From Candidatus Acidiferrum typicum (lineage in GTDB: Bacteria; Acidobacteriota; Terriglobia; Acidiferrales; UBA7541): a stretch of 64,000 bases of DNA. Below, one piece after another: positions 20,018 through 23,728 of this stretch; position 1 is the first letter of the stretch, and each line of letters starts with the position of its first letter. The position numbers were made by a program, and so were the translations under genes. The notes under the pieces were generated by a model. That model made no database searches, had not been told where the DNA came from, and saw nothing but the letters and a program-made list of their open reading frames with translations. Where the stretch lies: the NCBI GenBank assembly GCA_025463055.1, contig JAOAPV010000122.1, positions 1 through 64,000 of the forward strand, in the 5' to 3' direction.

Positions 20018-20042
20018 GTAGGGGCACAGCATGCTGTGCCCC
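20018..20042. repeat. GTAG-headed hairpin (REP-like), perfect palindrome
   Basis: GTAG at 20018-20021, then GGGGCACAGCA (20021-20031) directly abuts its exact complement TGCTGTGCCCC (20032-20042). It lies in the gap before hisS. A longer hisS frame that would begin inside this element is therefore unlikely to be used. Confidence 0.8.
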
Positions 20043-20132
20043 AGCTTGCCCGGACGCGCACTTCAAGCAAGGTGGTTCGCGCGATGGCTTCGAGCGCGCA
20101 TTTCCCAGCTTTGTAGGGGGTCGGAACTTCCA

Positions 20133-21752
20133 GTGAGCGACGCCACAGCAAAAAGAGAAGAGCGCCGCAAATTCCAGGCGATCCGTGGCACGCGTGACCT
20201 CTTGCCGCCGGAAACAGCGCTGTGGAACCGCGTCGAGCAAACCGCCCACGAAGTCTTCTCCACCTTCGGCTTCGGCGAAATCCGACTACCCATCTTCGAG
20301 CCCACAGAACTCTTCGCCCGCGCCGTCGGTGGCGAAACCGACATCGTCTCCAAGGAAATGTACACATTTGAAGACCATGGTTTTGTCGAGCTCGAACAAG
20401 TCAGAGCAGCACTTATTATTACGAAAACGTTCGACATCAAGGATGTGTCTTCGTTTTCCGCATTCGAGCGCAACGTACTCAACTATGTGAGCACCCTCCG
20501 GGAACGGTTCAACAGTGCCGAGGTTCCTAAAACCCCCGAAAATGAACGCGTTCTTGACTCGATTCTCAACCTTTTCGAGCGCATGAACCATTTCCTCAAA
20601 AAATATCTTGAAACGCCGGCGGACTCCCACGCCGATATGTTTGACCAGTACCTTTTGGACGTAAAGCACGCCTTGCGTTCTTTTCATTTCGGTGACGTCC
20701 TGAGCCTACGCCCCGAAGCCACCGCCTCCGTCTGCCGCGCCTACATCGAGCACAACATGCAGCAGCTCCCGCAGCCGGTAAAGCTGTACTACATGGGGCC
20801 GATGTTTCGCCGCGAGCGCCCGCAAAAAGGCCGCTACCGCCAGTTCTATCAAATCGGAGCAGAAATACTCGGAGGTTCCGACGCTCCCGCCATCGACGCC
20901 GAAGTCATCGAAATGCTGATGACCTACTTCGACAAGGTTGGCCTGCACGGCGCAACGCTCTACATCAATTCCATCGGCCACAACGCCGAAAATTGCCGCC
21001 GCGGCTACGTCGCAAACCTTAAAGCCGCGCTCGAAAAAGTAAAAGACAAACTATGCCCAGACTCCCAGCGCCGCATCGACACTAATCCGCTCCGTGTCCT
21101 CGACTCCAAGCTCGAAAGCGAGCAACCCATCATCGCCACGCTCCCGCATATCGCCGACCACCTTTGCGATGAATGCAAAACGAACTACGCCGAGGTAAAG
21201 CGCCAACTCGAGGTCCGTGGTGTCCTCTACCAGGAAAACTGGCGCCTGGTCCGCGGCCTCGACTACTACATGCGCACCACCTTTGAAATCACCGCCCCAG
21301 GCCTCGGCTCGCAAAACGCCGTCTGCGGCGGCGGCCGCTACGACGGCTTAGTCGAGCTGCTCGGCGGCCCGCCAACAAAAGGCATCGGCTTCGCGATCGG
21401 CGAGGACCGCCTAATCCTCTCTCTGCAAGAAAGCGGCAAAGCAAAAGTCGAACAAGGCCGCGACGTCTACATCGCATGGATGGGCGAACACGCCTACGCC
21501 GCCGCTATCCGCGCCGCAAAAGATCTGCGCAACGCCGGCTTCAGCGTGGAGCTTCCGCCGCTAGAGCAAAAATTCGGCAAAGCCCTCGGCCAAGCCGACA
21601 AGCTAGGCGCAAAATACGCCCTAATCCTCGGCGACAACGAAGTAAGCGAAGCCCTCTGGACCATCAAGACTTTGTCAACGGGTGAGCAACAAAAACTCCC
21701 CGAGCCAGAATTGCTACAATTTTTGCGCGACCAAAAACCGGAGTCGCAGTAG
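20133..21752 (+). CDS. hisS: Histidyl-tRNA synthetase with an unusual internal insertion
   Basis: Class II synthetase that charges tRNA-His. Motifs present are FQAIRGTRDLLP at the N-terminus, GETDIVSKEMYTFED, SLRPEATASVCRAYIEH, motif 2 MGPMFRRERPQKGRYRQFYQ, the His-specific LVRGLDYYMRTTFE, CGGGRYDGL and GIGFAIGEDRL, then an anticodon-binding domain. The protein is 539 residues against about 430 in the family. The excess is one block, residues about 83-188, between MYTFEDHG and LSLRPEAT, which are normally a few residues apart. The block (20373-20700) has no stop codon and is about 48 percent G+C against 64 percent in its flanks. The GTG at 20133 is chosen because longer frames start inside the upstream repeat. 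Confidence 0.93.
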   Translation: MSDATAKREERRKFQAIRGTRDLLPPETALWNRVEQTAHEVFSTFGFGEIRLPIFEPTELFARAVGGETDIVSKEMYTFEDHGFVELEQVRAALIITKTFDIKDVSSFSAFERNVLNYVSTLRERFNSAEVPKTPENERVLDSILNLFERMNHFLKKYLETPADSHADMFDQYLLDVKHALRSFHFGDVLSLRPEATASVCRAYIEHNMQQLPQPVKLYYMGPMFRRERPQKGRYRQFYQIGAEILGGSDAPAIDAEVIEMLMTYFDKVGLHGATLYINSIGHNAENCRRGYVANLKAALEKVKDKLCPDSQRRIDTNPLRVLDSKLESEQPIIATLPHIADHLCDECKTNYAEVKRQLEVRGVLYQENWRLVRGLDYYMRTTFEITAPGLGSQNAVCGGGRYDGLVELLGGPPTKGIGFAIGEDRLILSLQESGKAKVEQGRDVYIAWMGEHAYAAAIRAAKDLRNAGFSVELPPLEQKFGKALGQADKLGAKYALILGDNEVSEALWTIKTLSTGEQQKLPEPELLQFLRDQKPESQ

Positions 21753-21801: not shown

Positions 21802-21934
21802 CTTCTGCTGCGCCACTCGGGCCATCACTTTGTGCAAAGTATGAGAAGCCTGTCATCCTGAAGCTGTCGGACGAGGATAGCTGAAGGATCTCAGCGTAAA
21901 ATGAACCGACCTAAGTAAGCGAGGAAGAACCGCC

Positions 21935-23728
21935 GTGCTAGATTTTCTCGGCAACCTAAAACGTACCCACTACTGCGGCGCCCTGCGCGCCCCTGACGCT
22001 GGCAAAAACGCTATCGTAATGGGCTGGGTGCATCGCCGCCGCGACCTCGGCAACTTGCTCTTCCTCGATATCCGCGACCGCACCGGCATCGTCCAAGTCG
22101 TCTTCAACAAAGAAACGCAGCCGCAAGCCCACGCGAAAGCCGAGCAAGCCCGCAGCGAATTCGTCGTCGCGGTCGAGGGTCAGGTAATCAAGCGCCAAAA
22201 ATCTAATCCCGAGCTAACCACCGGCGAAGTCGAGCTAGTCGCCGCCAACCTGCACATCCTAAACAACGCAAAAACTCCGCCGTTCCCCGTAGAAGACGAA
22301 ATCAACGCCGCCGAAGAAACCCGCCTGCGCTACCGCTATATCGATCTCCGCCGCTCAAAGCCGCACCGCAATATCGCCCTACGCCACAAAATCGTTCTCG
22401 AAATCCGCAAAGTCATGGACGAAATGGGCTTCATCGAAGTCGAAACGCCCATGCTCACCCGCTCCACGCCCGAAGGCGCGCGCGATTATCTCGTCCCCAG
22501 CCGCGTGCATCACGGCCAGTTCTACGCGCTGCCGCAGTCGCCGCAAATCTTCAAGCAAATCCTGATGATTGGCGGCCTCGACCGTTACTTCCAAATCGTG
22601 AAATGCTTTCGCGACGAAGATCTCCGCGCCGACCGCCAGCCCGAATTCACCCAGCTCGACCTCGAAATGTCGTTCCCACGCCAGGAAGACATCTTCGAAG
22701 TCATCGAAAACGTGATGGTGCGTGCCTGCGCGGTCGCCGGCGTCAAAGCCGAACGCCCCTTCCCGCACATGCTCTACAAAGACGCTATCCGCAAATTCGG
22801 CAGCGACAAACCCGATCTGCGCTTCGGCATGGAGCTACACGAAGTCACAAGTTGCTTTCCTGAGGAAGCAAAACAAAAGCTGCAAATTGAAGGCAACGTC
22901 TTCGCATTCGCCGCAACCGGCGCAGCAAATTATTCGCGCAAGCAACTAGACGATCTCACAGAAAAAGCAAAATCTCTCGGCGCCCGCGGCGCCTATTTCG
23001 TAAAGGTCGCGCCCGAAGGCACTACCTCAACCGTCGAAAAACTAATCGGCCCGGAAAACGTAAAGAAACTCGCCGAAGCCGCGGGCGCAAAACCGGGCGA
23101 TCTCGTTGTCGCTGTAAGCGCCAAGCAACAAATCAAAGGCACCGAAGCCGCCGCGCTAATCGCCGGCCAGCTCCGCCTGCAACTCGGCGAAGCTCTCAGC
23201 CTGATCGACAAGTCGCAATGGAAATTTCTCTGGATCACCGGCTTCCCACTCTTTGAGTGGAGCGAGTCCGACAAGCAGTGGGTCAGCGCCCAGCACCCCT
23301 TCACCGGCATCGTCGATGAAGATCTGGGAAAACTAGAATCCGCGCCCTGGGAAGTCCGTTCCAAAGGCTATGACCTAGTCTTGAACGGCAACGAGCTAGG
23401 CTCCGGCAGCATCAGAATCCATCGCCAGGATATCCAAGCGCGTCTATTCAAAGCCCTCGGCCTAACCGAAGAGCAGCAGCGCCGCCGCTTCGGCTTCTTC
23501 CTAGACGCCCTAACTTACGGCACGCCACCCCACGGCGGCATAGCCCTAGGCATCGACCGCATAGCCATGCTCTTAGCCGGCGAGCGCTCCCTACGCGAAG
23601 TAATCGCCTTCCCCAAAACCACCGCCGCCCAAGACCTAATGGCCGAATCCCCCAGCGAAGTCGACACCGACCAGCTCGACCAACTAGGCATCGCCATCAA
23701 GCCCAGCGCCAAGAAAGCCGCCGAATGA
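21935..23728 (+). CDS. aspS: Aspartyl-tRNA synthetase, bacterial type
   Basis: A 597-residue class II synthetase of the long bacterial form. An N-terminal OB-fold anticodon domain reads GWVHRRRDLGNLLFLDIRDR. The catalytic core carries FIEVETPMLTRSTPEGARDYLVP (first part of motif 1), FRDEDLRADRQPEFTQLD (motif 2) and GGIALGIDRIAMLL (motif 3). The GAD insertion domain lies between them (about 285-420). GTG at 21935 is the start, with GAGGAAG at ribosome-binding distance. Whether it charges only tRNA-Asp or also tRNA-Asn cannot be read from this window. A small membrane protein gene and mutL follow closely. Confidence 0.96.
   Translation: MLDFLGNLKRTHYCGALRAPDAGKNAIVMGWVHRRRDLGNLLFLDIRDRTGIVQVVFNKETQPQAHAKAEQARSEFVVAVEGQVIKRQKSNPELTTGEVELVAANLHILNNAKTPPFPVEDEINAAEETRLRYRYIDLRRSKPHRNIALRHKIVLEIRKVMDEMGFIEVETPMLTRSTPEGARDYLVPSRVHHGQFYALPQSPQIFKQILMIGGLDRYFQIVKCFRDEDLRADRQPEFTQLDLEMSFPRQEDIFEVIENVMVRACAVAGVKAERPFPHMLYKDAIRKFGSDKPDLRFGMELHEVTSCFPEEAKQKLQIEGNVFAFAATGAANYSRKQLDDLTEKAKSLGARGAYFVKVAPEGTTSTVEKLIGPENVKKLAEAAGAKPGDLVVAVSAKQQIKGTEAAALIAGQLRLQLGEALSLIDKSQWKFLWITGFPLFEWSESDKQWVSAQHPFTGIVDEDLGKLESAPWEVRSKGYDLVLNGNELGSGSIRIHRQDIQARLFKALGLTEEQQRRRFGFFLDALTYGTPPHGGIALGIDRIAMLLAGERSLREVIAFPKTTAAQDLMAESPSEVDTDQLDQLGIAIKPSAKKAAE

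Follow-up and report, generated by a model that had tools for sequence, protein, structure and literature searches.

Aminoacyl-tRNA synthetases often serve as slowly evolving, reliable markers, and an insertion module in one of them is usually taken for an ancient trait of the whole family. In this study we analysed a stretch of 64,000 nucleotides (the window) from contig JAOAPV010000122.1 of Candidatus Acidiferrum typicum, in which hisS, the gene for histidyl-tRNA synthetase (HisRS), carries an in-frame insert of 103 residues, and compared this insert with the same site in related genomes. In the available part of PMC10810186, insertion modules are likewise handled as old whole-family features; a GlyRS-E module is described inside the beta-hairpin of most IIa members, and HisRS is placed in subclass IIc, which is not characterised by any insertion module. 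According to the accessible text of PMC12208437, the two mycobacterial glycyl-tRNA synthetases (GlyRS) studied there share 79.8% identity, and the two groups to which they belong have different insertion domains. These GlyRS modules are nearest in kind to the HisRS insert, being different insertion domains on similar enzymes; they differ in belonging to another enzyme, and the accessible portions of the two papers describe neither exchange between genera nor empty sites within a genus. When a profile of the long HisRS inserts was compared with PDB sequences (up to E 10), none of the 35 matches was a GlyRS chain. Rickettsia-type palindromic elements (RPEs), defined in the accessible part of PMC10969869 as in-frame extra peptides in protein-coding genes, resemble the HisRS inserts in that respect, and one HisRS insert (genome G004) holds a dispersed repeat; however, RPEs are multicopy and occur in many genes, whereas the window insert is single-copy and its long type occurs in HisRS only. 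Among the open-access matches listed, titles and abstract openings contained no report of a variable HisRS insert.

A further likeness is to the recombining allele cassettes of exposed bacterial proteins, with which the hisS insert shares conserved flanks and an exchangeable centre, although the cassettes belong to surface proteins that face immune or phage pressure and HisRS is a cytoplasmic housekeeping enzyme. The insert is not a one-off of recent date, nor is it an old feature that has become fixed. Whatever its use, it is probably an accessory module that can be exchanged, placed at a hot spot of recombination.

A single open reading frame (20031-21752) spans the whole insert block uninterrupted. 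Its product scored 465 bits against the HisRS family TIGR00442 (cut-off 286.75) and 148.9 bits against HisZ (TIGR00443), under the cut-off of 271.65, and the gene at 20133 is the sole HisRS match in its own genome (G000). Solved bacterial HisRS chains aligned in two pieces, at about residues 16-87 and 191-536 (numbered in the frame from 20121; three alignments), leaving residues 88-190 unmatched; the canonical 19-residue hairpin MYTFEDR..SLRPEAT is thus interrupted by 103 additional residues. The motif 2 arginines, LVRGLDYY and motif 3 occupy columns that are invariant or nearly so across 40 aligned HisRS sequences. In a structure comparison, the whole-protein model had the HisRS fold (against 1adj, Z 39.9, root-mean-square deviation (rmsd) 4.2, 413 aligned; against 4rdx, Z 38.7, rmsd 4.0, 406 aligned), and HisRS and its relatives HisZ and Gcn2 were among the best 50 rows; this comparison bears on the whole protein, not on the insert. 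An assembly artefact is unlikely, because the insert lies inside a 120.7-kb contig and dozens of other genomes have related blocks at the corresponding codon.

An earlier note on the window, made from its letters, had placed an in-frame insertion at 20373-20700, between the strand preceding motif 2 and the LRPE segment. We confirmed this insertion, whose limits (20382-20690) fall just inside that interval, and the note's expectation that it must loop out of the class II core is upheld. Its reading of the block as mostly helical is supported by an AlphaFold2 model (built with 40 sequences, only two of them insert-bearing), which predicted four helices between two strands (Table 1); the predicted fold is plausible, short of established.

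The site was readable in 83 of the 95 genomes of the order; of the other 12, eight gave no match and the rest were broken at the site. When the readable sites were divided by the number of extra residues, 41 were long (at least 60), 15 mid (20-59), 10 short (2-19) and 17 without insert. Long and empty forms coexist within each of the genera g1, g26, g31, g32 and g33. Thus close relatives do not share one block: they carry different blocks or none. Two genomes showed peculiarities at this site. G067 has two hisS stretches (L172 and L173), one without insert and one with six extra residues, representing contamination or a second gene. In G032 (L010 and L052, probably one contig) LGPEAT replaces the conserved LRPEAT beside a 74-residue insert, which may be a sequencing error.

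In the class sample (131 genomes, 105 of them outside the order), 97 of the 105 had a HisRS match, and in 93 of these the match was continuous across the site (rows read by eye). The remaining four matched only from about query residue 62-73, with extra residues of +31, +34, +107 (family f11) and +18 (f8); all of the seven other f11 genomes fetched had +6 at the site. Since members of other families of the class carry inserts there, the hairpin site is used beyond the order too. The 107-residue insert (L192, genome G187) lies in the same hairpin and is unrelated to that of the window.

The long-insert profile, built from 37 inserts, matched 39 of the 95 order genomes, the window's included, once each and always at the hisS site. 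It recovered left-out long inserts of G063 (E 1.7e-6), G001 (E 1.5e-4) and G038 (family f3; E 5e-6), and missed the 62-residue insert of G025 (E 0.26). The long inserts share the signature G-x-I-P-x-T-x-x-N (also seen as IPKTPEN) with flanking helices and usually a terminal LGD/E. They are homologous across families f1 and f3, with the motif and hydrophobic pattern kept in rows that are mostly less than 30% identical. The mid inserts mostly begin with DP, and their derivation from long inserts by shortening was unsupported (profile E > 0.2, hhalign probability 0.1%); a mid-insert profile matched 9 of 52 order genomes, again at the hisS site alone. For the +107 insert of G187 the long-insert profile gave E 7, with no sign of a relation. 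By these comparisons, at least three unrelated insert families occupy the hairpin position. In G004 (L021:1340-1530), the final approximately 30 bp of the hisS insert are a dispersed repeat, TCGCCACTCGCCACT..., which reads in frame as LATRHSPLAT and has 11 other copies at E < 1e-5; capture of a repeat can be one visible route by which inserts arise.

We reconstructed a tree of the HisRS core from 92 rows (81 from the order and 11 from other families) after dropping four of 96 rows with fewer than 300 residues. Genera g1 (32 rows), g31 (18 rows), g32, g26, g23 and g30 each formed one side of a branch, and g24 and g33 were not recovered as clades. On this tree the four length classes required a minimum of 34 changes. 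A second tree was reconstructed from 37 of the 41 long inserts (four were left out), on which a single g1 clade was rejected by the approximately unbiased (AU) test (P = 9e-7), with a log likelihood lower by 114.

The nearest-partner comparisons (omitting G067, G067b, G087, G100b and rows with short cores) pointed the same way. The nearest relative by insert belonged to another genus in 25 of 47 species, and the corresponding figures for four control segments of the same protein were 1, 0, 2 and 2 of 47. The nearest partner by insert was also the nearest by core in 3 of 52 cases, as compared with 11-20 of 52 for the control segments. With strong matches only (score of at least 100), the insert partner was in another genus in 10 of 24 cases and coincided with the closest relative by core in 2 of them.

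Single pairs illustrate both sides of this discordance. Core and insert identities were listed for the 45 closest same-genus pairs. G063 and G065 have cores that are 94.8% identical in amino acids, with 73% of fourfold sites identical, and inserts of 113 and 29 residues with no real similarity; in G107 and G108 the cores are 93.4% identical and the inserts 18% over 74 residues. Conversely, inserts are alike between genera in G006 (g1) and G108 (g32; 49% over 104 residues, core 69%), G030 (g1) and G036 (g2; 45% over 91), and G017 (g1) and G111 (g33; 41% over 97, core 68%). The window genome and its nearest relative, G022, have cores that are 89-90% identical and inserts that are 30% identical; with a core synonymous divergence (dS) of 0.53 and an insert nucleotide identity of 0.43, the change in the insert should exceed what neutral drift would produce in that time. 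A recent exchange is seen in G029 and G008, in which dS is 0.16 in the insert and 1.27 in the core. These two share a 212-bp tract that takes in the insert, the 69 bases before it and the 8 bases after it; identity is 93.4% inside this tract and 75.0% outside (0 of 5000 codon permutations).

A single old insertion, inherited vertically, diverging fast and lost many times, would explain the homology of the long inserts over families f1 and f3 and the frequent changes of length class. It is contradicted as the whole story by the AU test, by the cross-genus partners with their controls, by the recent tract of G029 and G008 and by the divergence of the G000 and G022 inserts, far above the core dS; we consider it improbable, although the long domain may have originated in this way.

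Under the reading as an exchangeable module, the hot spot would sit between motif 1 and motif 2, at the tip of the beta-hairpin; a module could be gained, removed or swapped there. We infer that this would come about chiefly through homologous recombination, in short tracts whose anchors are the conserved KEMYTF and LRPEAT codons; with an empty allele as the partner, the canonical hairpin would be restored. The main module would be a helical domain of about 70-116 residues particular to HisRS, with unrelated modules sharing its place, and it would project from the catalytic domain and leave the motifs untouched, which would keep the cell's only HisRS active; the insert-bearing enzyme is presumed to be functional. 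Because close relatives lack the module while the sole HisRS here carries it, the module is presumably not needed for charging generally.

Several observations weigh against this reading. The insert tree was weakly resolved, with 7 of 34 inner branches well supported, and divergence among the inserts is high enough to make some of the nearest partners noise. The best insert partner of the window, G023, belongs to the window's own genus, and a few pairs, such as G072 and G073, have inserts that track the core. A recent tract was seen in one pair only, G029 and G008. Travel of the N-terminal flank together with the insert was not significant (377 of 2000 permutations) among 14 same-insert, 22 both-empty and 617 different pairs, and the association of residues in this flank was weak (29 of 500); among 24 hand-picked pairs, single ones were suggestive of flank hitch-hiking, with no significant general rule. 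Since these wider tests of co-inherited flanks failed, tract ends are known for G029 and G008 alone. In the AlphaFold2 model, the predicted local distance difference test (pLDDT) of the insert block was about 53-74.

The base composition bears on whether the domain was recently acquired from a foreign source in the window genome only. The G+C content is 0.48 between KEMY and LRPEAT and 0.60 in the flanks, below which the insert thus lies, as this explanation would have it; at third codon positions of the window hisS, the insert has 0.589 and the core 0.732. The same difference was found in the long inserts (0.563 vs 0.721 in their cores, lower in 40 of 41) and in the mid inserts (0.555 vs 0.736, lower in 15 of 15). 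Low G+C is therefore a general trait of the inserts and no mark of a recent event in the window genome, and it does not support the recent acquisition that the earlier note had offered as one option; steady influx, gene conversion or weaker codon selection may lie behind it. An event confined to this genome is also contradicted by the homologous domains that 39 of 95 order genomes have at this site. Among the alternatives offered in the note (a horizontally acquired domain, a lineage-specific insertion or a recent event), restriction to the lineage stands, with relatives carrying different blocks or none, and recency falls; exchange between species and genera had not been foreseen.

No donor or paralogue of the insert was found in phages, plasmids or its own genome, and 25 pattern stretches found in viral contigs were all unrelated to it. 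In its own genome the insert DNA gave one full match, and otherwise scraps of 20 and 19 bases, and the insert protein gave no second match at E up to 10. The window insert had no accepted match in Pfam, NCBIfam, PHROGs or PDB sequences. Its best Pfam match, PSII_Pbs27 (E 0.013-0.014, 16 bits vs a cut-off of 25), was taken as a common helical pattern, and its best PHROGs match had E 0.15. For the 37 long inserts the best values were E 0.0067 in Pfam (GvpG) and E 0.011 in PHROGs, each in a single member. Together with the searches for donors and the composition of the inserts in general, the homologous domains leave a recent foreign acquisition hardly credible.

A selfish in-frame element, that is, an intein or an RPE, would also be in frame and low in G+C, and RPEs insert in frame according to the accessible part of PMC10969869. 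However, the insert is about 100 residues long without a Pfam intein or nuclease match, it had no second place in the genomes searched, and no copies of the long domain were found in other genes. No intein family matched the window protein (Pfam, E up to 5) or the 37 long inserts (E up to 1). Inteins have Cys, Ser or Thr at the start and His-Asn at the end; the insert starts with FVELEQ and ends with SFHF before GDV, and the exclusion of an intein in the earlier note is thus supported. Against an RPE stand the single-copy insert DNA and a long-insert profile that matches hisS only. We therefore give a selfish element very little weight.

In another explanation, the module would make up for an unusual tRNA-His or provide a further contact to the tRNA, after the manner of GlyRS, whose inserts near this place lie by the acceptor arm (PMC12208437) or are listed as tRNA-binding (PMC10810186), in the available parts of these papers. 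The tRNA-His gene here, found by RF00005, is of the canonical type, its G at -1 facing C73, and close relatives manage without the module; this explanation is unlikely.

The main rival is a passive, permissive loop, which agrees on exchange and denies a use: the hairpin tip would tolerate any in-frame sequence, and function-free inserts would grow, shrink and swap as long as they fold harmlessly. It would accommodate the empty and short sites (17 and 10 of 83), the occupation of the site by unrelated sequences, the repeat-ended insert of G004, which shows that inserts can come from repeat capture, and the low third-position G+C. To measure constraint, the ratio of nonsynonymous to synonymous divergence (dN/dS) was examined in 11 pairs, four of which had an insert dS under 2; in these four it was 0.12-0.34 in the insert and 0.09-0.13 in the core. 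That the insert ratio can be as much as about 3.5-fold the core ratio agrees with a passive loop. However, given values of 0.12-0.34, the module is translated and under purifying selection; moreover, the long domain keeps its motif and hydrophobic pattern over families f1 and f3 despite low identity, and an unused loop might shrink, yet 41 of 83 sites are long. A passive loop is a serious contender that we rate somewhat below an even chance.

As to a use of the exchangeable module, its diversity might be kept because the exposed HisRS surface is recognised by an antagonist (a phage protein, toxin or antibiotic) or by a partner, a suggestion that we make tentatively. Still more speculatively, HisRS would be antigen-like, with the module, including its null allele, reshuffled across species and genera under attack or docking (by a phage inhibitor, competitor toxin or antibiotic). 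The hisS module turns over between close species and appears to be passed on independently of the remainder of hisS, alongside empty hairpins in close relatives. If its diversity is selected, HisRS of soil Acidobacteriota would have an antagonist or partner still to be discovered; if neutral, the inserts are a natural series showing a class II synthetase site that accepts whole domains, useful for engineering.

Table 1. Positions in the window of hisS, its insert and conserved segments, and the following gene
Feature	Position	Strand	Basis or remark
hisS, histidine--tRNA ligase	20133..21752	+	GTG start probable, from starts of relatives; TAG stop
MYTFEDHG, first strand of the insert-opened hairpin	20358..20381	+	alignment, model
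Insert, 103 residues, long helical type	20382..20690	+	alignment to solved HisRS, relatives, model
Predicted helix 1 (model residues 91-102)	20391..20426	+	AlphaFold2, low to middling confidence
Predicted helix 2 (112-131)	20454..20513	+	AlphaFold2
VPKTPEN, best-conserved long-insert motif (consensus G-x-I-P-x-T-x-x-N)	20523..20543	+	long-insert alignment
Predicted helix 3 (139-164)	20535..20612	+	AlphaFold2
Predicted helix 4 (167-190)	20619..20690	+	AlphaFold2
GDVLSLRPEAT, return strand and conserved LRPE segment	20691..20723	+	alignment, conserved columns
Motif 2 loop FRRERPQKGRYRQF, intact	20805..20846	+	R230, R238, R240 invariant in 40 sequences
LVRGLDYY, the histidine-binding signature of HisRS, intact	21246..21269	+	conserved columns
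Motif 3 GIGFAIGEDRL, intact	21381..21413	+	G423, R430 invariant in 40 sequences
aspS, next gene after hisS, control	21935..23728	+	no comparable insert variation

Directly upstream of the hisS start, at 20018-20045, lies a palindromic, repeat-like sequence, GTAGGGGCACAGCATGCTGTGCCCC; a pattern derived from it matched the window once per strand, at this same place. Between hisS and aspS there is an intergenic stretch, GTCATCCTGA...GAAGGATCTCAGC, at 21852-21895. Sequences of this appearance are common in Acidobacteria genomes, and patterns drawn from the stretch were not more frequent in the window than expected by chance.

The aspartyl-tRNA synthetase (AspRS) encoded by aspS served as the sole control gene. 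In 47 of 52 genomes it gave one unbroken match that took in residues 8-585 of 597 or more; one genome had no match, and in four the match was in two pieces, on the same contig in G035 and on different contigs in G007, G082 and G096. In G035 (L036 contig, G035:C147:20268-22121), about 20 residues of AspRS around residue 300 are additional or diverged.
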